In this document: piece after piece, positions 11,660 through 53,419 of the stretch
Position numbering within the stretch: the first letter of the stretch is position 1
Layout of the letters: each line of letters starts with the position of its first letter
Assembly (NCBI GenBank): GCA_001029295.1
Contig: LDXJ01000062.1
Location: 248,001 to 312,000, forward strand
Direction: 5' to 3'
Length of the DNA stretch: 64,000 nucleotides
From: Peptococcaceae bacterium CEB3
GTDB lineage: Bacteria; Bacillota; Desulfitobacteriia; Desulfitobacteriales; Desulfitobacteriaceae
Notes under the pieces: generated by a model
Database searches by the model: none
Told to the model about the DNA's origin: nothing
Seen by the model: only the letters and a program-made list of their open reading frames with translations
Position numbers and translations under genes: made by a program

Positions 11660-11677
11660 TTGGCACAATTTTTGCTA
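11660..11677 (+). promoter_or_regulatory. Sigma-54 (-24/-12) promoter of the alcohol dehydrogenase
   Basis: TTGGCACAATTTTTGCTA fits the consensus YTGGCACR-N4-TTGCW, with exactly 10 bases between GG and GC. The expected start near 11688 leaves a ~195-nt leader. Confidence 0.75.
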
Positions 11678-13447: not shown

Positions 13448-15445
13448 ATGGGCTTTCTTTTCGGAATTTCCAGCGGAGAGGGACTTTTCAGACAGAGAGA
13501 GGCATTGGAGGAGGCACGGAGTGCCTTTCTGTACAACCCCTTGAACTGTCGTTCGATGCGTCCGGTTATCTATGATTCCTGGCTGCGTTGTCTCCAGAGC
13601 GGGATCGATCCTGCGCGCAAACGGGCAAAGGATCCCTCAGAAAAGAAAGAGAACGGAGAGATCTCGGGGTCTTCCGGGCTCTGCGAATGTGCTTTGCCCG
13701 TTTTGACGGAGTTACTTGTTCAAGTGCAAGAAACCAGCCACCTTCTCATCCTGAGCGATGCCCAGGGACGGATCAATTTTCTCGACGGTGATCGCCGGGT
13801 GAAACGTCAGGCGGAAAGAATTAATCTAGTGCCGGGTGCCAACTGGGCGGAAGAGGAGATCGGGACGAATGCCATCGGCACCGGCCTGAAAGCCGGCAAC
13901 CCGGTTCAGGTTTTTGCGGCCGAGCATTTTTGCGAGGGGATTCATGACTGGGTCTGTTCCTCCGCGCCCATAGCGGACCCTTTGACGAGTGAGGTGCTGG
14001 GGGTTGTCGATGTCACCGGAAATTGGAGGGAAGCCCAGACTCACACCCTGGCCCTGGCGATGATGACTGCCAAGATGGTTGGACAAGAGATGCGGAAACA
14101 AGCGGAAATTGCGAGGCAGCAACTGAGGGAAAGATATTTAGCAGAGGTCCGCCGCTCTCAGGAGGACGGGATTGTTGTGTTTGACGGGGGGTTTAATCTT
14201 GTAGAGGCAAACCCTCGCGCCCGGGAATGGGCTGAACGTGCGACTGGAAGAAGTTCGGCCCGGGTGTGGTCCGACCCGGAACTTCGCGCGTACTTTTGGA
14301 CGCGTCACCGTTCCCTGGGGCAGGAGCATGGATACGAAGTTTTCCCGCAACAGTTGGGTTTTCCGGGCTTGATTCAGCAGATTTTCTCTGCCGGGAAAAG
14401 CATCGGGTTTCTTCTTATTCTGCGACCCCGGGGCGGCAAGAGAATAGGCAAGAGGCCCGCGGATTCTCCGTGGGAAAAAGTTATCGGCAGGTCCCCCAGC
14501 CTGCTTGCTGCCATCGAACAGTGCGACAGAGTGGCCAAAGCCAATGTCTCGATCCTCCTGTCGGGAGAAACCGGGTCAGGCAAAGAACTCTTCGCCCAAG
14601 CCATTTATCGGGCGAGTGAACGGCGCCGGGGCCCGTTTGTGGCTTTAAACTGCGGGGCGGTGCCACAGGAATTGTGTGCCAGCGAGCTTTTTGGTTATGC
14701 TCCCGGGACTTTCACAGGGGGAATGAAAGAAGGGAAGCAAGGGAAGTTCAAGCAGGCTCAGGGTGGGATATTGTTTCTTGATGAAGTCGGCGAGATTCCG
14801 TTGCCCTTACAGATTCACTTCCTGCGTGTACTGCAAGAGCGGGAAGTGGTACGGCTGGGAGCGGCAAAGGCCACCCCGGTGGATGTCCGGGTTATCGCCG
14901 CTACTCATCAAGATCTTGAGCAACTTGTGCATGACGGCTTGTTCCGCATGGATTTATATTATAGGTTAAACGTCGTAAGCATCGCGATTCCGCCTTTGAG
15001 AGAACGCCGGGAGGATATTCCGCTTTTGAGCGAGCACTTTCTGGAGGAACTGGCGCACAAATACGCCAGGCCGGGTCTTAAACTGGCTCCATTCGTGCGA
15101 GAATTTCTTGCCAACATTTATCCGTGGCCGGGAAATGTCAGGGAGTTGAGCAATAGTTTGGAGCACGCCGTGCTGTTTTGCCGCACCGGGACGATTATGA
15201 TGGATGATCTTCCTCAGCCCCTGCAACACTATTTGGGGGGTGATTCCCCTTTGAGCGAAACCGAACAGCCGGGCGTCGGACGAACAAAGACGAACGGAGA
15301 CCCGGAAAGGGAAGAACTGCTCGGTTTATTGCTGCAATCCGGAGGCAATCTGTCAGCCACGGCCCGCCGGTTAGGTGTAGCGCGTACGACCTTGTACAGG
15401 CATTTAGAGAAATGCGGAGTGAACAAAAACATGAGCTTTAATTAA
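13448..15445 (+). CDS. Sigma-54-dependent activator, AcoR-like (GAF-PAS-AAA+-Fis)
   Basis: About 665 residues. Residues ~30-230 resemble the sensory region of acetoin/glycerol-type activators such as AcoR and DhaR, with a GAF-like core (GTNAIGTGLKAG). A PAS-like segment follows, then the AAA+ domain with Walker A GETGSGKE, Walker B ILFLDEVGE and the arginine-finger region, and a C-terminal Fis-type helix-turn-helix (SATARRLGVARTTLYRHL). The sigma-54-contact loop reads GTFTGG instead of GAFTGA, keeping the essential Phe and Thr. Start 13448 follows GAGGAGG; an ATG at 13394 is in frame. It most likely activates the adjacent dehydrogenase through the 11523 palindrome. Confidence 0.92.
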   Translation: MGFLFGISSGEGLFRQREALEEARSAFLYNPLNCRSMRPVIYDSWLRCLQSGIDPARKRAKDPSEKKENGEISGSSGLCECALPVLTELLVQVQETSHLLILSDAQGRINFLDGDRRVKRQAERINLVPGANWAEEEIGTNAIGTGLKAGNPVQVFAAEHFCEGIHDWVCSSAPIADPLTSEVLGVVDVTGNWREAQTHTLALAMMTAKMVGQEMRKQAEIARQQLRERYLAEVRRSQEDGIVVFDGGFNLVEANPRAREWAERATGRSSARVWSDPELRAYFWTRHRSLGQEHGYEVFPQQLGFPGLIQQIFSAGKSIGFLLILRPRGGKRIGKRPADSPWEKVIGRSPSLLAAIEQCDRVAKANVSILLSGETGSGKELFAQAIYRASERRRGPFVALNCGAVPQELCASELFGYAPGTFTGGMKEGKQGKFKQAQGGILFLDEVGEIPLPLQIHFLRVLQEREVVRLGAAKATPVDVRVIAATHQDLEQLVHDGLFRMDLYYRLNVVSIAIPPLRERREDIPLLSEHFLEELAHKYARPGLKLAPFVREFLANIYPWPGNVRELSNSLEHAVLFCRTGTIMMDDLPQPLQHYLGGDSPLSETEQPGVGRTKTNGDPEREELLGLLLQSGGNLSATARRLGVARTTLYRHLEKCGVNKNMSFN

Positions 15446-42026: not shown

Positions 42027-42725
42027 GTGAAAAAGATCTTAATCATTGAGGATGACGCCAGTATTGCTGAATTGCAGAAAGACTACTTGGAACTGGCCGG
42101 GTTCGAGGTCATGATTCGGACGGATGGGGAGAGTGGCAGGCAAGCGCTTCAAACCGAAGGGATCGATTTGCTCATCCTTGATATCATGCTGCCGGGGCTT
42201 GACGGCTTGGAGCTCCTGCGTGGGATGAAGGAAAGCAAAGATATTCCGGTTCTCCTCGTCTCGGCCAAGAAAGAGGAAGTCGATAAGATCAAAGGGCTGA
42301 GTTTGGGCGCGGATGATTATATCACCAAGCCTTTCAGTCCGGGGGAATTGGTGGCCAGGGTTAAATCTCACCTGGAAAATTACGGACGCCTGAAAGAACG
42401 GTTTAAGTCCGGGGTCAGGGAGACTCCCACTCTGCGCATCCGCGGTCTGGAGATAGACCGGGCCGCCCGCCGCGTCTTTGTCCATGGGGAAGAGGTGAAT
42501 CTGGCTCAGAAGGAATTTGAGCTCCTGCTCTTTTTAGCCCAGAACCCGAACCGCGTTTTCGGCCGCGAGGATCTCTTTGAACGGGTCTGGGGTTTAGAGT
42601 CCTTGGGTGACGCGTCCACCGTGACTGTGCACATCGCCAACGTGCGTAAGAAGATTGAAACTAATCCCGGGAATCCTCAGTACATTGAGACCGTGTGGGG
42701 GGCGGGGTATCGCTTCAAAGTATGA
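42027..42725 (+). CDS. OmpR-family response regulator
   Basis: A 232-residue two-domain regulator. The receiver domain has acidic EDDAS, the phosphoacceptor Asp in LLILDIMLPGLDG, the switch Ser in VLLVSAKKEE and the Lys in ITKPFSPGELVARV. The C-terminal winged helix (LAQKEFELLLFLAQNPNRVF, ETVWGAGYRFKV) binds DNA. AGGAGGAAGG precedes ATG. It is the last gene of the ABC-kinase-regulator operon and the presumed activator of it. Confidence 0.95.
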   Translation: MKKILIIEDDASIAELQKDYLELAGFEVMIRTDGESGRQALQTEGIDLLILDIMLPGLDGLELLRGMKESKDIPVLLVSAKKEEVDKIKGLSLGADDYITKPFSPGELVARVKSHLENYGRLKERFKSGVRETPTLRIRGLEIDRAARRVFVHGEEVNLAQKEFELLLFLAQNPNRVFGREDLFERVWGLESLGDASTVTVHIANVRKKIETNPGNPQYIETVWGAGYRFKV

Positions 42726-42746
42726 GCGCTGCCAGACTCGGCTCTT

Positions 42747-42831
42747 GATCGTTTTTTTCGTTCGGACCGGGTCGGAGTCAGGAAACGCGGGAGTGGCTTG
42801 GGTTTGGCGATTTCCACCGGCTCCCCCGTTG
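42747..42831 (+). pseudogene. Histidine-kinase fragment (duplicated F/G2 box)
   Basis: An in-frame ~28-codon fragment just after the response-regulator gene reads LDRFFRSDRVGVRKRGSGLG, then LAIS. It copies, with substitutions, the kinase segment at about 41780-41850. The flanks are not kinase-like. It is a remnant of a duplicated or recombined second kinase. Confidence 0.7.
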
Positions 42832-42990
42832 GCAGCAGGAATTGTTGCCGCTATGGCGAAAATATACTATTAGCAAGGGGATTAAGATATTTCAAGGGGA
42901 TTAAGACATTTACAGAAGAGAACAGCCTAGGGATTAGTCTTAGGAAATTCGTCAGCGCTGGCCTGCCATGTCAGTTAGGGAGACGATCAG

Positions 42991-44460
42991 ATGGATGTTG
43001 CACGCTTTGCCTTTTACCAGCTGGGTGAAAGCGCCGGACGCGCCATGGGGTGTGCCGACTTTTCCATGCTCGTGAAGATCCTGGGCACTCTGGGTTTGGG
43101 TGACCTCCAGATCGACTGGAAAAATAACCGACCCGTGTTTCGTTTGTCCGGGCAAGGCAGGCCAAGATCCGCAGCCGCTACGGTCTCCTGCTTTTTCCAG
43201 GCGGGTTTTTTGGCCGGGTGCTTAGAGAGCTTTTGGCGGGATAAAGTCGTAGTCGAAGAAAGCAGGTGCCTGAGTTTGGGTGACAGCTGTTGTGAATTTT
43301 CTGTCGCTCCGGACTCCCAATGGCCCAGTTCTGCTTTTTGTGCTTCTACACCGGGGGTTATCGTCGGGCAGGTCGATAAGGTGGCTGTCCGTTCCTTTTT
43401 AGATTTACAGAAACAGTGGTTGCAAGCGGCTGGGATGACGGCTACGGCTGGGGTCAGTCCACCCAAAAGAGCGGAGAAGAATAATTCATCTTCTCCGGTT
43501 TTTACCCTCCAAGATCTGAAAGGGATATCTCAAAGTATGGTCGATTTGAAGCAAATGGCCGCCAGGGCAGCTCGTTCGGATTTCACGGTCCTGATCCAAG
43601 GGGAGTCAGGTACCGGTAAGGAACTGTTGGCTCAAGCTATCCACCATATGAGCCGGCGGGCGCAGGGGCCCTGGATCAGCCTTAATTGCGCCGCCGTCCC
43701 CGAAAATCTTTGGGAAGCCGAGTTCTTTGGTTTTGAGGAAGGTTCATTCACAGGGGCGAAAAAAGGCGGCAATCCGGGTAAACTCGAACTCGCGCATGGC
43801 GGGACGCTCTTTCTGGATGAAATCGGCGACATGCCCCTGGCGATGCAGGCCAAATTGCTGCGGGTTCTGCAATATGGAGAAGTGCAAAAACTGGGCAGTG
43901 TTCACCGCTTGGCGGTGGATGTCCGTTTAATTGCGGCGTCCAATAAAAATCTGACGCGACTGGTAGAGGAGGGTGGGTTCCGAGAGGACCTTTATTATCG
44001 GCTCAATGTCATCCGGCTGGAAATTCCACCTCTGCGCGAGCGGCCGGAGGATATTCCGGTTCTTGCCCTGCATATCCTGGAAAAGCTCAGCGGGAAATAT
44101 CCCGAGGGTTCAAAGAGGATCACGCCTGCCGCCTTGGGGCGTTTGCAGCAATATGTCTGGCCGGGAAACGTGCGGGAGCTGGAAAATATTATGGAAAGAG
44201 CTTTTTCTTTGATTGACGGCGAGCTCATCGACTTGGAGGATCTCCTGGCCTTTCTGCCTGGGAACCTCACTTCTCCGGCCGGCCGGGTGGGCGGTTCGCT
44301 CAAAGAGAGTTTGGCGGGAATTGAACGCGAGTTAATCCTGGAAGCGATTGAAGCGGCCGCAGGCAACCGTACCCAGGCGGCACGGATTTTGGGCCTCTCC
44401 CGTTCCACCCTCCACGTCAAATTGAAGCAGCACAATATAGTTTGGGAAGACGAGCCTTAG
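42991..44460 (+). CDS. Sigma-54-dependent activator with V4R sensor domain
   Basis: A 489-residue enhancer-binding protein. Residues ~1-120 match the V4R/XylR-type ligand domain (FFQAGFLAGCLESFW, SLGDSCCEFSV), which in relatives binds small hydrophobic or metal-linked signals; four cysteines make a metal or redox input plausible. The AAA+ domain has Walker A GESGTGKE, the sigma-54 loop GSFTGA, Walker B LFLDEIGD and RLNVIRLEIPPLRER. The C-terminal Fis helix-turn-helix ends NRTQAARILGLSRSTLHVKL. It is followed by tandem dyads and a sigma-54 promoter for the hdr/mvh operon, which it most likely controls. Confidence 0.92.
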   Translation: MDVARFAFYQLGESAGRAMGCADFSMLVKILGTLGLGDLQIDWKNNRPVFRLSGQGRPRSAAATVSCFFQAGFLAGCLESFWRDKVVVEESRCLSLGDSCCEFSVAPDSQWPSSAFCASTPGVIVGQVDKVAVRSFLDLQKQWLQAAGMTATAGVSPPKRAEKNNSSSPVFTLQDLKGISQSMVDLKQMAARAARSDFTVLIQGESGTGKELLAQAIHHMSRRAQGPWISLNCAAVPENLWEAEFFGFEEGSFTGAKKGGNPGKLELAHGGTLFLDEIGDMPLAMQAKLLRVLQYGEVQKLGSVHRLAVDVRLIAASNKNLTRLVEEGGFREDLYYRLNVIRLEIPPLRERPEDIPVLALHILEKLSGKYPEGSKRITPAALGRLQQYVWPGNVRELENIMERAFSLIDGELIDLEDLLAFLPGNLTSPAGRVGGSLKESLAGIERELILEAIEAAAGNRTQAARILGLSRSTLHVKLKQHNIVWEDEP

Positions 44461-44506
44461 GCGCAAACGAATAGGCAGAATAATGAGGGAACTGATTATT
44501 CGGAAT

Positions 44507-44545
44507 TGTCCGGATTTCTGGACGGGGTGTCCGAAAAACCGGACA
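44507..44545 (+). promoter_or_regulatory. Tandem upstream activator sites for the V4R activator
   Basis: Two dyads of the form TGTCCG-N6-CGGACA. The second (44528-44545) is perfect; the first (44507-44524) has a degenerate right half (TGGACG). Their centres are 21 bp apart, two helical turns, and ~200 bp upstream of the -24/-12 promoter, the classic enhancer layout. Confidence 0.75.
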
Positions 44546-44569
44546 GTTTAGCCTGCCGCCACAGTCAAG

Positions 44570-44596
44570 TCTCCTCCGAAAAGGGGAGATTTTTTT
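44570..44596 (+). terminator. Intrinsic terminator after the activator gene
   Basis: TCTCCTC, loop CGAAAA, GGGGAGA, then TTTTTTT. A second, partly similar GGGGAGATTTTTGCTTGTCAC segment lies near 44649. Apart from the activator sites and promoter, the 44461-44783 gap holds nothing else. Confidence 0.75.
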
Positions 44597-44732
44597 GTCT
44601 GTCAGTCCCCAAGTGTGCCTTCGCTCGACCTATCTCTGCTCTTTACGAGGGGAGATTTTTGCTTGTCACTGCCCGGGCGGTACCGGCAAATGCCAAGAAA
44701 GGTCTGCGGTCGGGCGGCATAAGCCCGGTTTA

Positions 44733-44749
44733 GTGGCATGGATCTTGCA
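44733..44749 (+). promoter_or_regulatory. Sigma-54 (-24/-12) promoter of the hdr-mvh operon
   Basis: GTGGCATGGATCTTGCA matches TGGCAYR-N4-TTGCA exactly, with 10 bases between GG and GC. The predicted start near 44760 lies 24 bases before the hdrC ATG. Confidence 0.8.
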
Positions 44750-44783
44750 CCCCTGCCATGGGATAAAGAGAGGAGGGAGGCCC

Positions 44784-45356
44784 ATGACAGAGGAACTGCC
44801 GGTCCTGCAGGAGGGGAGCTTGGATCCGGATTTTAAGCGCCTAATTGAGACCCTGTCCGGTGCCCAAAACCTCAATGCCTGCATCCAATGCGGGACCTGC
44901 TCCGGTTCCTGCTCGTTCAGCGAGCGGATGACGCATACACCCCGCCGCTTGCTGGAGATGGTGCGGGCCGGGATGCGGGAGGAGGTTCTGAACAGCGACA
45001 CCTACTGGTACTGCACTTCATGTTATTACTGTACTGTACGCTGTCCGCGGGGAATTAATCTGACCGAAGTCATGTATGCCCTCAAACACCTGGCGATTTC
45101 CGTAAACAAAGACAAAAACGCGGCTTTTTACGATTGTTTCGGGTCTGTCCTGCAAAGCTACGGCCGGCTGTATGAAAACGGACTGCTGCTAAGACTCGCT
45201 TTAAAGACGGATCCCCTCATGCTGGTCGCTTACGGTCCTATCGGGGTGAAGATGTTTCTTAAGGGCAAACTCAATATTTTGCCCAGCCGGGTGCGAGCCC
45301 TTGCGGAGATCCGGCGGCTTTATGAAAAAGTGGGGGAAATGGAGGAAAAAATATGA
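44784..45356 (+). CDS. hdrC: Heterodisulfide reductase subunit C
   Basis: A 190-residue iron-sulfur protein with two [4Fe-4S] motifs: CIQCGTCSGSC near residue 37 and CTSCYYCTVRCP near 78. HdrC relays electrons from HdrA to the HdrB active site. GAGAGGAGGGAGG precedes the ATG. It is the first gene of a seven-gene operon behind a sigma-54 promoter, and its stop overlaps the hdrB start by 4 bases (ATGA). The substrate of the complex in a non-methanogen is unknown, probably a disulfide or a protein partner. Confidence 0.93.
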   Translation: MTEELPVLQEGSLDPDFKRLIETLSGAQNLNACIQCGTCSGSCSFSERMTHTPRRLLEMVRAGMREEVLNSDTYWYCTSCYYCTVRCPRGINLTEVMYALKHLAISVNKDKNAAFYDCFGSVLQSYGRLYENGLLLRLALKTDPLMLVAYGPIGVKMFLKGKLNILPSRVRALAEIRRLYEKVGEMEEKI

Positions 45357-46231
45357 ATTATGCCTATTACCCGGGTTGCTCCCTCCATGCCACGGCTCGC
45401 GAGTACGATGAGTCAACCCGGGCGGTTTTTGAAAATCTGGGGATAGGCCTGCGGGAGATCGAGGATTGGAACTGTTGCGGGGCCACCGCCCTGCCTTCCA
45501 CCAGCTACCTCTTTTCCCTCGTCGTTCCCAGCCGCAATCTCGCTCTGGCCGAGGAGACGGGGCAAGACGTGGCGGTAGCCTGCAATTCCTGTTTCGTCAC
45601 TTTGCGCCGGGCGAAGTCCGTCTATGAAGAGAATCCGCTCTGGCGGGCCAAGATTCAGGAAGCCATGGGCGCCATTGGCCGAAGTTTTGCAGCCAGAGTG
45701 CAGATTAGGCATGTCCTCGACATTGTGGTCAACGATGTGGGCCTAGACCGGATAGCCGAGACGGTGCGCAGGCCTTTGCGGGGTTTAAAAGTCGTACCTT
45801 ACTACGGTTGCCAGATTGCCCGGCCGAAAAACGAATTTGCTCATCCCGAACTGCCCACGGAAATGGACCGCCTCTTGGAGGTCTTGGGGGCGAAGGTTCT
45901 GCGCTATGATCACAAGACGAAATGCTGTGGCGGTGCCTTGATGACGACGAAACCCGACGCCGTGTTGGAGCTGGAAAAGGAACTTTTAGGCGAAGCGGAT
46001 CTACGGGGGGCGGAGGCTATGGTCGTGAGCTGTCCGCTTTGCCAGTTCAACCTGGATGCCTATCAGGACAAAGTCAATAAACGGTTTCAAACAAACTATA
46101 ACATCCCGGTGATCTATTTCACTCAGCTTCTGGGAGTGGCCCAGGGGTTAGCCCCGAAAAAGCTCGGTTTGAAACGGAATCTTGTTCCACTGAGGGGACT
46201 CCTGCACAAGTATTACGGGGAGGTGATCTAA
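45353..46231 (+). CDS. hdrB: Heterodisulfide reductase subunit B
   Basis: A 292-residue catalytic subunit with two CCG domains. The first carries YYPGCSLHA, DWNCCGATAL and ACNSCF; the second YYGCQIARP, TKCCGGALMTT and SCPLCQFNLD. In HdrB these cysteines hold a pair of non-cubane [4Fe-4S] clusters that cleave a disulfide. All ligand positions appear present, so it should be catalytically competent. It overlaps both neighbours by 1-4 bases. Confidence 0.94.
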   Translation: MNYAYYPGCSLHATAREYDESTRAVFENLGIGLREIEDWNCCGATALPSTSYLFSLVVPSRNLALAEETGQDVAVACNSCFVTLRRAKSVYEENPLWRAKIQEAMGAIGRSFAARVQIRHVLDIVVNDVGLDRIAETVRRPLRGLKVVPYYGCQIARPKNEFAHPELPTEMDRLLEVLGAKVLRYDHKTKCCGGALMTTKPDAVLELEKELLGEADLRGAEAMVVSCPLCQFNLDAYQDKVNKRFQTNYNIPVIYFTQLLGVAQGLAPKKLGLKRNLVPLRGLLHKYYGEVI

Positions 46232-49200
46232 TGGCAGAGGAGATTAGGACCGGGGTCTATGTCTGCCATTGCGGCACAAACATTGCGGATAAAGTGGATG
46301 TCCAGGCTGTGAGCAAATTCGCCGGAACCCTGCCTGGCGTAACGGTCAGCCGCGATTATAAGTACATGTGCTCGGATCCCGGACAGGATCTGATCAAGAA
46401 AGATATTAAAGAATTGGGGCTGAACAGGGTGGTCGTCGCCTCTTGTTCTCCCCGCATGCACGAACCGACTTTCCGCCGCGCGCTGGCAGCCGCGGGACTC
46501 AACGGATACCTCTTTGAGATGGCTAACATCCGGGAGCAAGTTTCCTGGGTAAGCAGTAATCCCCTGCAGGCGACGGTTAAAGCCAAATCCCTTGTTTCCG
46601 GCGCGGTGCGCAAGGTCAGATACAACCGCCCTCTGGAGGAAAGGTATGCCCCGGTCAATCCAAACGTGTTGATTGTGGGCGGCGGGGTGGCCGGCCTGGA
46701 AGCCGCTTTGAAAATAGCGGAGTCGGGAAACCAAGTCTATCTTGTGGAGAGGGAGGCCTCTTTGGGCGGCAATATGGCGAAGTTTGACAAGACCTTTCCG
46801 ACCCTGGATTGTGCCGCCTGCATTTTGACCCCGAAAATGGTTGAGGCCGGCCAACATGAAAAGATCAAACTCCTTACTTACAGTGAAGTGACTCAGGTCG
46901 ACGGATTTATCGGCAACTTCCAGGTCAAAGTCCGGCAAAAAGCGCGCTATGTTGATGTGGACAAATGCACCGGCTGCGGCGACTGCGAGCAGGTCTGTCC
47001 CGTCAATACGGTGGACAGATTTAACGAAGGGTTGAGCGAGCGCAAGGCTATTTTCAAGGAATTTCCCCAAGCTGTCCCCAATGTCTATCAAATAACGAAG
47101 AAGGGGACGGCCCCCTGCCGTCTGACCTGCCCGGCCGGGGTCAATGTGCAGGGATATATGGCCTTGACCCGCCAGGGCAAGTACAGTGAAGCGCTGGCTT
47201 TAATCAGGGAGGCTATGCCCTTGCCGGCTGTTTGTGGTCGCGTGTGTTTCCATCCCTGTGAAGGGGAATGCCGGCGGGGTGACCTGGATCAACCGGTGGC
47301 CATCAATGCGGTAAAGCGTTTCCTGGCGGATCATGAAGCGAAAAACGGGTCCGTTCCACCCGTGTCAGCCCCTGCCAGCGGGCGGAAGGTGGCTATTGTC
47401 GGGGCCGGCCCGGCCGGTTTGGCGGCGGGCTATTATTTGAGCAGAGCCGGGCACGAGGTGGTCGTCCTGGAGGGAAAAGCGGAAGCCGGCGGGCTGCTTC
47501 GCTACGGTATTCCTGAATACCGTCTCCCTAAAGATATTCTCCGGTGGGAAATCGACCAGATCAGCCGGGACGGTGTGAGCGTCAGGATCAACCAATGGCT
47601 GGGGCGGGATTTCACCCTGGAAAAATTGCGCCAGGAATACGATGCGGTTTTTCTGGCTTTAGGCACGTCCAAGGAGCAAACCTTGGGTATTCCGGGCGAG
47701 GAGCTGCAGGGAGTTGTCAGCAGCCTCAAATTCTTGGAATCCGCCAACACGCGGGCGGAGAGCGTCAGCGGCCGGGTGTTAGTCATCGGCGGCGGCAATG
47801 CCGCGGTGGACGCCGCCCGTACGGCTTTGCGGCTGGGGGCCCAAAGCGCGGAAATCATTTACCGGAGAACCCGGAACGAGATGCCGGCTTTTGCCGAGGA
47901 AATCCGGGAGGCGGAAAAGGAGGGTGTAAAATTCCGCTTTCTCACCGCTCCCATGCGAGTCGTGGGTCGGGGCGGCCGGGTGCAAGCCTTGGAGTGCCAA
48001 CCGCGGCAGTTGGGAGAAGTGGATGCCGGTGGCCGGCGCCGGAGCATTCCTGCCTCAGGCCCCAATGTGCTCTTAGAAGCGGAGTTAATCCTGGTCGCCG
48101 TGGGTCAGAAGGTGGAACTTCCGGCCTCCTTGGCCGGTAAAGTGGCTCTTGGCGCCAGGGGAACGGTTCTGGTGGATGAATATGGGCAGACGAGCAGCCC
48201 GGGGGTATTCGCCGGCGGGGACTTGGTGAGCGGACCCTCGAGCATGGTGGAGGCGATTGCGGCCGGGAAAGAGACCGCCCGGGTTATTGACGCGTTCGTG
48301 CGCGGTCAGGCGCTGCCGGGGCCTGTTCCCAAACCCCAACCCCTGCCCCAACCCGCCAACCCGGATAGATTTTACAAGGCCGCCCGGCATGAGCCGGCCC
48401 AGCTGGAACCGGAAAAGCGGCGCGGCTTGAGTGCGGAGATCACGGTCACCCTGAGCGAGGAAGAGGTTCTGGATGAGGCCAAGCGTTGTTTGGATTGCGG
48501 GGTCTGTTCGGAATGTCAGGAGTGCGTCAAAGTTTGCCAAGCTGGGGCGATTGATCACGGGATGCAGGATGAAGAAGTGGAATTAGAAGTGGGCAATATC
48601 ATCCTGGCCACGGGCTATGAAACCCTTGATCCCAGCCTCGGCGTGCAGTGGGGTTATGGGCGCTTTCCCAATGTTCTGACCGGTTTGCAGTTTGAGCGCT
48701 TGAGTAATGCTTCAGGACCTACCTTGGGCAGGATCGTCCGGGAAGACGGGCGAGAGCCTGAAGCTGTCGCTATCTTGCACTGTATCGGCAGCCGGGACAA
48801 GAACTACAAAGAATACTGTTCCCGGGTCTGCTGCATGGCCAGCCTTAAATTCGCCCACCTGGTCAAAGACAAGACGAAGGCTAGAGTGTACGAATTTTAT
48901 ATCGACATGCGGGCCTATGGCAAGCAGTACGAAGAATTTTACAACCGGGTTCAGGATGAAGGGGTAAATTTCATCCGGGGTAAAGGAGCCGAGGTTCTGG
49001 AAAAAGACGGGCGTCTGGTGATCCGGGCCGAAGATACGCTTTTGGGTGTTTTCCGGGAGGTCCCGGTGGACATGGTCATCCTGAACACGGCGCTCACGCC
49101 CCGGTCCGACGCCGACGCGGTGGCCCGCCTCTTCACGATTCAGCGCAGTGCCGACGGTTTCTTCCTGGAATCTCATCCCAAATTGGAACCGATTAAAACG

Positions 49201-49563
49201 GCGACAGACGGTATCTATTTGGCTGGGGCCTGCCAGGCACCGAAGGATATTCCCGACACGGTGGCCCAAGCGGCCGGGGCGGCGGCGGAAGCCTTGGAGA
49301 AAATCTCGGCCGGCCGGGTGCGGATTTCCCCCATCACCGCTTACTGTCTGGAAGAACTTTGTTCCGGTTGCAAGACCTGCATTCCCCTCTGCCCCTATAA
49401 TGCCATTACATTTTCGGAAGAGAAAAAAGTCGCGCTCTACAATGAAGCGCTCTGCAAGGGCTGCGGCACCTGTGTGGCCTCCTGTCCTTCCGGAGCGGCC
49501 CACATGCGTAACTTTGAAGAGGAGCAGATGCTGGAGATTATCGAGGGGGTGTGTGCGCTGTGA
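46231..49563 (+). CDS. hdrA: Heterodisulfide reductase subunit A with inserted GltD/NfnB-like NAD(P)H module
   Basis: An 1110-residue flavoprotein, far longer than usual HdrA (~650). HdrA sequence comes first: VYVCHCGTN at the N-terminus, FAD loop VGGGVAGLEAAL at ~149 and a ferredoxin motif CTGCGDCEQVCP at 247-257. From ~290 to 695 lies a complete glutamate-synthase-small-subunit-like unit: cysteines CRLTCPAGV and CGRVCFHPCEGEC, FAD loop VGAGPAGLAAGYYL, NAD(P)H loop IGGGNAAVDAARTA and GGDLVSGPSSMVEAIAAG. HdrA resumes at ~750 (CLDCGVCSECQECVKVC) and ends with two [4Fe-4S] motifs (CSGCKTCIPLCP, CKGCGTCVASCP). Two FADs plus an NAD(P)H site suggest that NAD(P)H joins H2, ferredoxin and the HdrB substrate in bifurcation (inference). 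Confidence 0.93.
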   Translation: MAEEIRTGVYVCHCGTNIADKVDVQAVSKFAGTLPGVTVSRDYKYMCSDPGQDLIKKDIKELGLNRVVVASCSPRMHEPTFRRALAAAGLNGYLFEMANIREQVSWVSSNPLQATVKAKSLVSGAVRKVRYNRPLEERYAPVNPNVLIVGGGVAGLEAALKIAESGNQVYLVEREASLGGNMAKFDKTFPTLDCAACILTPKMVEAGQHEKIKLLTYSEVTQVDGFIGNFQVKVRQKARYVDVDKCTGCGDCEQVCPVNTVDRFNEGLSERKAIFKEFPQAVPNVYQITKKGTAPCRLTCPAGVNVQGYMALTRQGKYSEALALIREAMPLPAVCGRVCFHPCEGECRRGDLDQPVAINAVKRFLADHEAKNGSVPPVSAPASGRKVAIVGAGPAGLAAGYYLSRAGHEVVVLEGKAEAGGLLRYGIPEYRLPKDILRWEIDQISRDGVSVRINQWLGRDFTLEKLRQEYDAVFLALGTSKEQTLGIPGEELQGVVSSLKFLESANTRAESVSGRVLVIGGGNAAVDAARTALRLGAQSAEIIYRRTRNEMPAFAEEIREAEKEGVKFRFLTAPMRVVGRGGRVQALECQPRQLGEVDAGGRRRSIPASGPNVLLEAELILVAVGQKVELPASLAGKVALGARGTVLVDEYGQTSSPGVFAGGDLVSGPSSMVEAIAAGKETARVIDAFVRGQALPGPVPKPQPLPQPANPDRFYKAARHEPAQLEPEKRRGLSAEITVTLSEEEVLDEAKRCLDCGVCSECQECVKVCQAGAIDHGMQDEEVELEVGNIILATGYETLDPSLGVQWGYGRFPNVLTGLQFERLSNASGPTLGRIVREDGREPEAVAILHCIGSRDKNYKEYCSRVCCMASLKFAHLVKDKTKARVYEFYIDMRAYGKQYEEFYNRVQDEGVNFIRGKGAEVLEKDGRLVIRAEDTLLGVFREVPVDMVILNTALTPRSDADAVARLFTIQRSADGFFLESHPKLEPIKTATDGIYLAGACQAPKDIPDTVAQAAGAAAEALEKISAGRVRISPITAYCLEELCSGCKTCIPLCPYNAITFSEEKKVALYNEALCKGCGTCVASCPSGAAHMRNFEEEQMLEIIEGVCAL

Positions 49564-50078
49564 GTGAGCTTACGACGGGTTCTGCGCCTGCGGGTTCTCC
49601 GCCTGAATATGAACCGAAAATCATCGGTTTTCTCTGTAATTGGTGTGCCTATACGGCGGCTGATTTAGCCGGGATCGCCCGCATCAAATACCCGGACAAT
49701 ATCCGCATCGTCCGGGTGATGTGCACCGGCCGGGTGGAGCCGACCTTTGTTCTCAAAGCCCTCTCGGCCGGGGCGGATGCCGTGTTGGTGGCCGGGTGCC
49801 ATCCGGGTGGCTGCCATTATCAGGAGGGCAACTACAAAGCCTACAAACGCACGCTGTTACTCCAAAACATGCTGCCTCAATTTGGGATCGAGAAGGAGCG
49901 CTTTCGGTTGGAGTTTGTCGCCAGCAGCGAAGGGGAGAAATTTGCTCGCGTGGTGGGAGAAATGGTAGCCAAGATCAAGGAGTTGGGGCCGCTGTCCGGC
50001 GCCGGGGTAAGACTGGCCGCTTTGGATGGCTTCTTCACCGAGAAGGAAAGGATAGAAGGAGGGGTGAACCTTGGCTGA
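49560..50078 (+). CDS. mvhD: Hydrogenase/Hdr linker subunit MvhD ([2Fe-2S])
   Basis: A 172-residue MvhD/FlpD-family protein that wires the hydrogenase to HdrA. Conserved cysteines are visible in FLCNWCAYTAADLAG, VMCTGRVEPTF and GCHPGGCHYQEGNYKA, which ligate a [2Fe-2S] cluster. GTG 49560 overlaps the hdrA stop (GTGA) and GAGGGGG lies upstream. Its own end overlaps mvhG by 8 bases. The position between hdrA and mvhG matches methanogen and clostridial Mvh-Hdr operons. Confidence 0.92.
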   Translation: MSELTTGSAPAGSPPEYEPKIIGFLCNWCAYTAADLAGIARIKYPDNIRIVRVMCTGRVEPTFVLKALSAGADAVLVAGCHPGGCHYQEGNYKAYKRTLLLQNMLPQFGIEKERFRLEFVASSEGEKFARVVGEMVAKIKELGPLSGAGVRLAALDGFFTEKERIEGGVNLG

Positions 50079-51108
50079 CAAATTGAAGTTTGCCTTCTAC
50101 TGGAACGCCAGTTGTGGCGGCTGTGAGATCGCGGTTCTCGACATCAACGAAAAGATCCTCGATGTGGCCGCCCTCGCAGACATCGTGCTCTGGCCGGTCG
50201 CTCTTGATTTCAAGTATCACCATGTTCAGGCCCTTCCCGACAACTCAATTGATGTCAGCTTCATCAACGGTTCGATCCGCAATTCGGAACAGAAGGAAAT
50301 TGTAGAATTGCTACGGCAAAAAAGCAAAGTCGTGGTGGCTTTCGGCTCCTGTGCCCATCTGGGGGGAATTCCGGCTCTGGCCAATTTGCGCAGCCGGGCG
50401 GAAATATTCGAGCGGGCTTATCGGGAAACACCCAGCACAGTGAATCCGGAAAATGTTCTGCCCCAGCCGCGTACTCGGGTTGCGGAAGGAGAATTGGAAC
50501 TTCCTGTCTTCTTCGATCACGTCTACCGCCTGGACGAGGTCATTCCGGTGGAATACTACGTCCCCGGCTGTCCGCCCACGCCGAAAATGATCGTTGAAGC
50601 CGTGACGGCCATTGCCGAAGGGAAACTGCCGCCGGTGGGTTCGGTTTTCGGCGGCACGACGACCGTGTGCGACTCTTGCCGGCGCACCAAGGAGGAAAAG
50701 AAGGTCAAGGCCTTTCACCGTATTCACGAAGTGGAGGCCGATCCGGAGCGGTGTTTTCTGGAGCAGGGAATAATCTGTGCCGGTCCGGCCACGCGAGATG
50801 GCTGCGGTACGCTCTGCCTCAATGCCAACATGCCTTGCCGGGGTTGCTTCGGTCCTCCCGACGGGGTTGCCGATCAAGGGGCACGCCTTTTGTCCGCTCT
50901 GGCCACATTGGTGGACAGCAAAGATTTGGATGAGATTCAGGGGTTAATCGACCAAGTGGTCGACCCCGCCGGCTATTTTTATCGTTTCGGGATGTCCAGT
51001 TCTCTGCTGAAACACAAAGTCCTGCGGCCAGAAGAAGCCGGCGCCCAGCAGGCGGAGACAAAAGCCCAAGTGGCGGCCGCCGGCCAGGAAGGGAGGGGGG
51101 CCCGGTGA
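50071..51108 (+). CDS. mvhG: [NiFe] hydrogenase small subunit MvhG
   Basis: A 345-residue electron-transfer subunit of a group 3 [NiFe] hydrogenase. The proximal-cluster cysteines are in WNASCGGCEIAVLD, FGSCAHLGG and YYVPGCPPTP. The C-terminal half has more ligands (TVCDSCRRTK, CFLEQGIICAGPAT, GCGTLCLNANMPCRGCFGP) for the medial and distal clusters. No Tat signal is present, so it is cytoplasmic. It starts at TTG behind AGGAGGGG and overlaps mvhA by 4 bases. The last ~30 residues are Ala/Gln/Glu-rich and non-conserved. Confidence 0.93.
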   Translation: MADKLKFAFYWNASCGGCEIAVLDINEKILDVAALADIVLWPVALDFKYHHVQALPDNSIDVSFINGSIRNSEQKEIVELLRQKSKVVVAFGSCAHLGGIPALANLRSRAEIFERAYRETPSTVNPENVLPQPRTRVAEGELELPVFFDHVYRLDEVIPVEYYVPGCPPTPKMIVEAVTAIAEGKLPPVGSVFGGTTTVCDSCRRTKEEKKVKAFHRIHEVEADPERCFLEQGIICAGPATRDGCGTLCLNANMPCRGCFGPPDGVADQGARLLSALATLVDSKDLDEIQGLIDQVVDPAGYFYRFGMSSSLLKHKVLRPEEAGAQQAETKAQVAAAGQEGRGAR

Positions 51109-52571
51109 GTCTGAAACAAGTTACGATCAACCCCATCACCCGCTTGGAGGGGCACGGTAAGATCGAGATTTTCCTCGATGAGCGGGGGGATGTCGCCAAC
51201 GCCTATTTCCAGGTCCCGGAACTGCGCGGGTTTGAAAAGTTCTGCGAGGGCCGCCCGGCTGAAGAGATGCCCCGGATCACCCCTCGCATCTGCGGTGTTT
51301 GTCCGTCTGCCCATCACATCGCCTCAACCAAAGCTCTGGACGGAGTTTTTAACGTTGAACCGCCCCCGGCTGCTAAGAAATTGCGGGAACTCTTTTACAA
51401 TGCCCATATGATTCACTCCCATATTGCCCATTTCTACGCCTTGGCCGCGCCTGATTTTGTGGTCGGCCCGGACGCGGACCCGGCTGAGCGCAATATACTG
51501 GGGGTCATTGGTAAGGTCGGGCTGGAAGTGGGGGGCGAGGTGATCAAACATCGGGCCTACGCTCAGGACATTCAGGCTATGATCGGGGGAAAGCCCACCC
51601 ACGCGGTCTGCGGTTTACCGGGGGGGATGAGCAAGAGCATCACGGAGGAGGAACGCAAGGATATTGAAGCGAAAGGAGAATCATTCGTCCGTTTTGCTCA
51701 GTTTTCCCTCAAGATTTTCGAAGATGTAGTGCTCAAGAACCAACGCTACGTGGATCTGATTCTCGGGGATCTCTATTACATGAGGTCTTATTACATGGGT
51801 ATGGTCGACGCCCAAAACAAGGCTAGCTTCTATGAAGGTCAGGTCAGGGTGGTCGACCCGGAGGGTAAGGAATTTGCCAGGTTCTCGGGGTTGGATTATC
51901 TGGAACACATCGGCGAGCACGTGGAGCCCTGGTCCTATCTTAAGTTTCCCTTCCTGAAAAAACTGGGCTGGAAAGGTTTCCAAGACGGCCCGCAGAGTGG
52001 GGTGTACCGCGTGGCTCCACTGGCCCGACTCAACGCGGCGGATGGCATGGCCACACCTTTGGCCCAGGAAGCCTATGAAAAGATGTACTCTACCCTGGGG
52101 GGTAAGCCGGCCCACCATACCCTGGCCAATCACTGGGCTCGCTTGGTTGAGCTCCTCTATTCTTCGGAAAGAGTGCTGGAACTGGCCCGCGATCCGGAGA
52201 TTACCAGCCCCCGGATTCGCGCCCTGCCTGAGGGGATTCCCAAAGAAGGGGTGGGAATTATCGAAGCCCCGCGGGGGACGCTCATCCACCATTATCAGAC
52301 GGACGAAAAAGGTATCCTGACTAAAGTCAATTTGATTGTCGCCACAGGTAACAATAACGCCGCTATCAATATATCCGTGCAAAGGGCGGCCAAGGGTCTG
52401 ATCAAAAAAGGCAAGGTGAGCGAGGGTCTCCTCAACATGGTGGAAATGGCCTTCCGCGCCTATGATCCCTGCCTGGCCTGCGCCACCCACAATCTTCCGG
52501 GCTCCATGCCGCTCCTGGCCAGAATCTATGACCATGACGGAAATTTATGGCAAGAAGTAAAGCAGGGCTGA
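51105..52571 (+). CDS. mvhA: [NiFe] hydrogenase large subunit MvhA
   Basis: A 488-residue catalytic subunit that splits or forms H2. The four nickel cysteines are in the N-terminal [15 protein letters not shown] and C-terminal DPCLACATH motifs. After DPCxxCxxH a ~27-residue tail remains ([17 protein letters not shown]...), which a maturation protease would remove; such a protease is encoded downstream. It starts with GTG overlapping mvhG. Together with MvhG/D and HdrABC it forms an H2-driven electron-bifurcating complex. The active-site residue is Cys, not selenocysteine. Confidence 0.95.
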
Positions 52572-52801: not shown

Positions 52802-53419
52802 ATGGGAATTTTAGAAAGTGCTCCGGCACTTGGAGAATCAAGGTCGAGCGGCACCTTGTCGGGAATGGACGCCGGGGCCGGACAAGTGCGGTCAGGAGAA
52901 AAAAGGGTGGGGAGTGAAGGTGGGGGGAAAAGATCGAACTTGCTGATTTTCGGTTTGGGTAACACGTTGCTCTGCGACGACGGAATCGGCATTTACTTGG
53001 GGCGCCGCGTGTCCGCCTTGCTCTCGGGAGAGGATGGCTGCACCGGACCCAGGGCGGATTTCGTCGAAGCTTCCCTGGCGGGACTACAGCTGCTGGATTA
53101 CATCGTCGGTTACGAGTCTTTGGTGATCATTGATGCCATCCAAACCGCGGACGGAGTGGCCGGGCAACTGTACTCTTTCGGAGAAGAGGAATTGGCCGCT
53201 ACCGTACGCCTGACCTCGGTCCACGACATCAATTTGGCTACGGCCCTCCAACTGGGTCGCAGGTTGGGTATGCAGATTCCGTCCCGAGTGCTCATTTACG
53301 CTGTCGAGGCCAAAGATATCTTCACTTTTCAAGAAAGCTGCACGCCGGAACTGAATGCCGTCATTCCCGACTTGGCGGTAAGAATTTGCCTAGATATCCG
53401 GGAAAAATATGCCGGCTGA
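52802..53419 (+). CDS. Hydrogenase maturation protease (HyaD/HycI family)
   Basis: A 205-residue nickel-dependent endopeptidase that clips the C-terminal tail of the hydrogenase large subunit after metal insertion. The core begins LLIFGLGNTLLCDDGIGIYL, with the family GxGN motif and metal-binding Asp; the second acidic ligand lies in LVIIDAIQTAD and the histidine in TSVHDINLATALQL. The first ~48 residues are a Gly/Ser-rich extension without similarity, so a start nearer 52920 is possible, though GAGGCGGTGGG precedes ATG 52802. It is the last gene of the operon and presumably matures MvhA. Confidence 0.9.
   Translation: MGILESAPALGESRSSGTLSGMDAGAGQVRSGEKRVGSEGGGKRSNLLIFGLGNTLLCDDGIGIYLGRRVSALLSGEDGCTGPRADFVEASLAGLQLLDYIVGYESLVIIDAIQTADGVAGQLYSFGEEELAATVRLTSVHDINLATALQLGRRLGMQIPSRVLIYAVEAKDIFTFQESCTPELNAVIPDLAVRICLDIREKYAG

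Follow-up and report, generated by a model that had tools for sequence, protein, structure and literature searches.

A V4R-type sigma-54 activator and a candidate promoter-enhancer cassette at the hdrCBA-mvhDGA operon of Peptococcaceae bacterium CEB3

Introduction

The way in which bacteria switch their H2-linked, presumably electron-bifurcating Hdr-Mvh complexes is poorly known. The window analysed here, a 64,000-nucleotide stretch of DNA from the sulfate-reducer-like Peptococcaceae bacterium CEB3, contains such an operon directly behind the gene of a sigma-54-dependent activator, and raises the question of whether this neighbour controls it. The original prediction described a V4R activator, two dyads, a -24/-12 promoter and the operon as one complete layout, and the domains, the sites and an rpoN gene confirm this. 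The local activator very likely switches on hdrCBA-mvhDGA through a self-contained cassette, as judged from sequence. The cassette is compact and conserved, has defined sites, and also occurs in a named species, Acididesulfobacillus acetoxydans, which makes the question directly testable.

The hdrCBA-mvhDGA operon

The genes of the operon and the protease gene behind it are as follows.

44784-45356, + strand: hdrC, two 4Fe-4S motifs
45353-46231, + strand: hdrB, two complete cysteine-rich CCG motifs
46231-49563, + strand: hdrA, 1110 aa, inserted GltD-like NAD(P) domain at residues ~290-690
49551-50078, + strand: mvhD (PF02662)
50071-51108, + strand: mvhG, [NiFe] hydrogenase small subunit (PF01058, VhuG-like)
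51105-52571, + strand: mvhA, [NiFe] hydrogenase large subunit with RICGVC and DPCLACATH motifs (PF00374)
52802-53419, + strand: hydrogenase maturation protease (PF01750), probably the last gene of the operon; same order in relatives

The two CCG motifs of HdrB, the L1 and L2 cysteines of MvhA, and the presence of both MvhD and MvhG assign the predicted complex to the HdrABC-MvhADG type. It is H2-linked, to judge from its subunits, and the acceptor of its Hdr part would be a disulfide. The complex resembles methanogen HdrABC-MvhADG in having HdrA, HdrB, HdrC, MvhD, MvhG, and MvhA with intact catalytic motifs. In contrast, it is bacterial, and its HdrA has a GltD-like insert, which is the type III layout. 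Type III HdrA is defined by insertion of a GltD domain; it was described in archaea, where it has been proposed to use NADH (PMC12054007). The GltD-family match covers residues 290-690 of the HdrA studied here, and the insert is conserved across relatives. Its second dinucleotide motif is GGGNAA, as against GXGXXG in PMC12054007, and by the rule of that study GGGNAA would point to NADPH.

The activator and its V4R sensor

The activator gene lies upstream of the operon and encodes the following regions.

42991-44460, + strand: V4R-type sigma-54 activator (bEBP), 489 aa (Pfam PF02830, PF00158, PF25601, PF02954; motifs; orthologues in five further genomes)
42991-43308, + strand: V4R sensor region, residues 1-106; C67, E90, C93, and C101 are the predicted zinc ligands (aligned to the MJ1460 and MopR structures)
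43522-44019, + strand: AAA+ sigma-54 interaction domain, residues 178-343 (PF00158, E=3.2e-67)
44311-44430, + strand: Fis-type HTH, residues 441-480, the presumed reader of the dyads (PF02954)

The protein has the build of a bEBP. Its AAA+ domain carries the Walker A/B motifs (GESGTGKE as Walker A; GTLFLDE) and a GAFTGA-type sigma-54 loop, here GSFTGA, and its C-terminus is a Fis-type DNA-binding domain. The closest named relative is A. acetoxydans, whose activator is 87% identical.

The V4R profile itself matches residues 66-106. In MopR-type sensors a structural zinc is held by three Cys and one Glu (PMC10715001), and DmpR likewise has a three-Cys-one-Glu zinc site (PMC7264223). Residues C67, E90, C93, and C101 of the activator align column by column with C155, E178, C181, and C189 of MopR, and they are invariant in four orthologues. 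The conserved cysteines are thus probably a zinc site. The original prediction drew attention to a cysteine-bearing sensor; the cysteines are indeed conserved, but their reading as the mark of a redox sensor was set aside, since these residues correspond to the structural zinc site in MopR and DmpR. C21 and C100 do not vary among the four orthologues either, and they fall outside the zinc explanation. Residues 1-106 contain no His, and Trp43 is not conserved in G039, so the His/Trp pair that anchors phenol is missing. Without that His, phenol would not be expected as the ligand. A structure model of the V4R region, made from two sequences, is weak (mean pLDDT 59.5). Among PDB structures it most resembles the V4R protein MJ1460 and MopR, which does no more than agree with the sequence alignment.

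Promoter, terminator and dyads

Four sites lie between the activator gene and hdrC.

44507-44524, no strand: dyad 1, imperfect, candidate enhancer (UAS), TGTCCGGATTTCTGGACG; position kept in relatives, degenerate in G043
44528-44545, no strand: dyad 2, perfect palindrome, candidate enhancer (UAS), TGTCCGAAAAACCGGACA; conserved in 6/6 genomes
44567-44592, + strand: intrinsic terminator of the activator gene, between dyads and promoter; equivalent hairpin and T-rich tail in 6/6
44734-44749, + strand: -24/-12 promoter, TGGCATGGATCTTGCA, predicted start ~44760; conserved in 6/6 before orthologous hdrC

The promoter contains GG-N10-GC at the fixed spacing, in a genome with one clear rpoN. It lies 188 bp past dyad 2 and 34 bp ahead of the hdrC ATG, where a near-perfect -24/-12 promoter had been predicted. 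The genome (G000) is rich in sigma-54 equipment, with about 44 full-length activators among 55 profile matches. Its sequence contains 60 TGGCAY-N5-TTGCW sites, compared with 10 for the reversed pattern and 6 for the wrong N6 spacing. A second consensus -24/-12 site occurs in the window at 11661-11676, and another sigma-54 activator at 14480-14983.

The dyad centres are 21 bp apart and lie 3' of the activator gene. The description of two TGTCCG-N6-CGGACA dyads at this spacing was slightly overstated: the spacing is right and dyad 2 is exact, being also a TGT-N12-ACA palindrome, but dyad 1 has two mismatches. The looser pattern GTCCG-N7-GGAC matches both. The 5.3 Mb genome has a single pair of such sites with a gap of 4-6 bp, and the reversed control gave zero. 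In first-order Markov resamples of the intergenic region, at least two such dyads arose with P ~0.0002.

Further dyads were sought across the whole genome with exact and one-mismatch patterns, and with a weight matrix at 30 of the 60 sigma-54 promoters. Apart from one borderline site, the matrix found no other strong dyad at these 30 promoters, and it had no match upstream of the activator gene. The other targets near -24/-12 promoters for which the original prediction proposed a search are not claimed. Two other perfect or near-perfect dyads were considered as second targets and treated as chance: the one at C62:347563 is within a coding sequence, the one at C25:15511 between frr-like and uppS-like genes, each without a -24/-12 site in the stretch examined. 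The borderline dyad (17.3 bits) was also rejected. It lies 477 bp 5' of the sigma-54 promoter of proline-catabolism-like genes, inside the coding region of a PAS-type activator. At that locus (G000:C47:58500-63000, L095), the PAS-type activator is divergent from the sigma-54 promoter, and proline dehydrogenase-like and aldehyde/P5C dehydrogenase-like genes follow downstream.

Conservation within the order

A search with the sensor domain in 74 genomes of the order gave six strong matches (G000, G001, G039, G043, G047, and G048). A search with HdrC in the same 74 genomes found orthologues, at 70% identity or above, in those six and no others. They span two families and are related, so their co-occurrence does not represent six independent events. 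The order activator-hdrCBA-mvhDGA is complete in G000, G001, and G039, and is cut by a contig end in G043 (in mvhG) and G047 (after hdrB). A -24/-12 motif precedes hdrC at all six orthologous loci, compared with a nearby motif at one of 24 more distant hdrC-like loci.

Dyads lie 3' of the activator in all six genomes and are followed each time by a terminator. In the five genomes that allow the measurement, the centre of dyad 2 lies 99-223 bp upstream of the predicted start. Palindromes are thus kept upstream of the promoter while their distance from it varies, as is characteristic of an enhancer. Dyads that are not conserved in relatives sharing this gene order had been named as grounds for abandoning the prediction, which withstood this comparison across six genomes and two families. 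In A. acetoxydans the intergenic region retains both dyads, the terminator, and the promoter, while much of the remaining sequence differs and some is lost. In three relatives dyad 2 measures 17 bp, as against 18 bp elsewhere, so the spacing of its half-sites is variable.

In G048 the activator and hdrC are on separate contigs, each adjoining the same repeat, and the promoter is kept. The repeat is nearly 200 bp long (agtatatactcggcaac...) and is found beside the activator (L139, ~2540 to end) and beside the hdrC promoter (L153, ~1160-1346). This suggests either a true, repeat-mediated split or an assembly artefact. In the tree, the activator of G039 (family f1; L092) clusters with family f2, and G039 has the 17-bp form of dyad 2 in common with that family. 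The whole cassette may have moved horizontally between families f1 and f2.

Proposed mechanism and alternatives

Dimers of the activator would bind the two dyads behind their own gene through the Fis-type HTH. The V4R domain would take up a small-molecule signal, upon which the AAA+ domains would oligomerise, and the oligomer would loop over the terminator to RNA polymerase-sigma-54 at 44734-44749. Transcription would begin near 44760 and cover hdrCBA-mvhDGA, probably with the maturation protease gene, and the terminator would stop transcription of the activator gene from reading into the operon. Dyad binding by the activator, looping, the start site, the extent of the operon, the ligand, and the conditions of expression are predictions at this stage.

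Sigma-54 control of the operon is probably real. Transcription mainly from a sigma-A promoter, with the sigma-54 site minor or a relict, is very unlikely: sigma-A promoters can be degenerate, but a crude consensus scan of the + strand of 42700-44900 found no sigma-70-like match, and six genomes retain the -24/-12 motif amid a much diverged intergenic region. The dyads might instead serve another protein or autoregulation, with another activator of the genome driving a sigma-54-dependent operon. About 44 full-length activators are encoded in the genome, and in the window the dyads are closer to the 3' end of the activator gene than to the promoter. This explanation is nevertheless unlikely, as each of the six genomes combines dyads and activator with this hdrC and its promoter, and the 30 scanned sigma-54 promoters show no further strong dyad, the borderline site aside. 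For autoregulation, dyads downstream of the activator gene are in the wrong place, and the stretch upstream of it has no matrix match.

It is highly improbable that the dyads are RNA hairpins of the 3' end of the activator mRNA, with a role in stability or termination, and not protein-binding DNA. Their position, after the stop codon and ahead of the terminator, would suit this, and dyad 2 could form a six-pair RNA stem. However, a distinct terminator, complete with T-rich tail, comes after them in all six genomes, and the letters TGTCC/GGACA themselves are kept where an RNA stem would need compensatory pairing only. Tandem TGT-N10-12-ACA sites are moreover standard for Fis-type activators, according to a study of Clostridiales (PMC6615313). 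The reading preferred here remains that of dyads bound by the neighbouring activator.

Comparison with known systems

According to the same study, the EBPs of Clostridiales are mostly adjacent one-component activators, with V4R among their sensor domains. Their UAS of the form TGT-N10-12-ACA are common with Fis-type activators, often number more than one, and are mostly 100-250 bp from a TTGGCATN5TTGCT promoter (PMC6615313). The present dyads fit this UAS class, and their distances are close to its 100-250 bp. The parts of the study examined list no hdr/mvh target in the Clostridiales EBP regulons, and the term 'hdr' is absent from the main text. The examined parts of a reconstruction of sigma-54 regulons across bacteria likewise contain none.

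MopR, DmpR, and PoxR have the same one-component plan of V4R, AAA+, and Fis domains, and the C-E-C-C zinc pattern of the activator aligns exactly with that of MopR. In contrast, the activator has a much shorter N-terminal region without the phenol anchor, and its targets are unrelated.

In D. vulgaris Hildenborough, the sigma-54 response regulator DVU2394 controls the DVU2405-2397 adh-hdr operon (PMC3333781, PMC4641369). It is similar in being a sigma-54-dependent activator of an hdr-bearing operon in an anaerobe, and it has the same GSFTGA loop variant. In contrast, it is a two-component response regulator of a different phylum with a direct-repeat site, and its operon includes an alcohol dehydrogenase. 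Flx presumably takes the place of the Mvh hydrogenase in that operon. The original prediction knew of no description of sigma-54 control of an Hdr-Mvh complex by such a V4R sensor. Sigma-54 at an hdr operon has this precedent; no account of an Hdr-Mvh operon under V4R or sigma-54 control was found in the open-access literature. The cassette is a familiar type of switch, the local one-component sigma-54 activator, and what is new is its target together with the V4R sensor.

Activators at the same operon in other Bacillota

The HdrC search was extended to 399 genomes of the phylum outside the order. At four loci (L189, L190, L191, and L192; families f36, f6, and f45) a PAS-type activator stands directly ahead of hdrCBA-mvhDGA and the protease gene. 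In three of them a -24/-12 motif precedes the hdrC match by about 80 bp, whereas the fourth has only the weak TGGCATGAATTTTGGA. All four have repeats resembling GTGTACAC, GTGTTAAC, or GTGTAAAC in the intergenic region. These loci are thus similar to the V4R cassette in the position of the activator and the target operon, and in three cases the promoter. In contrast, they have a PAS sensor, other repeats, and an HdrA without the GltD insert, and their activators form a separate supported clade. The HdrA of L189-L193 aligns as residues 1-283 plus ~750-1109. A tree of 49 activators places the V4R proteins (100/100) and the PAS proteins (100/98) in two distinct clades and does not show them as sister groups. 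Elsewhere in the phylum there are longer V4R activators (L141-L146 and L148), with no hdr/mvh homologue in the 12 kb of sequence examined.

Since an unrelated PAS lineage precedes hdrCBA-mvhDGA elsewhere, Hdr-Mvh seems to have come under sigma-54 control, or to have had its activator exchanged, at least twice. That one operon is served by two unrelated lineages of activators with different sensors suggests that strict signal-dependent control has been repeatedly favoured. A more speculative and rather doubtful proposal is that the V4R domain is a dedicated sensor of an intermediate of H2/disulfide electron flow, such as a thiol, persulfide, or flavin-derived ligand, and not of an aromatic compound, and that V4R and PAS control were acquired independently across Bacillota. 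A comparison of the ligands of the two lineages could reveal the cell's signal.

A different hdrCBA operon, in a genome of the same family (G021, genus g4), also has a -24/-12 motif, TGGCACGAACCTTGCT (L160, 2052-2067, minus strand). This motif is directly ahead of the first possible hdrC start codon, and hdrC probably begins at a later Met.
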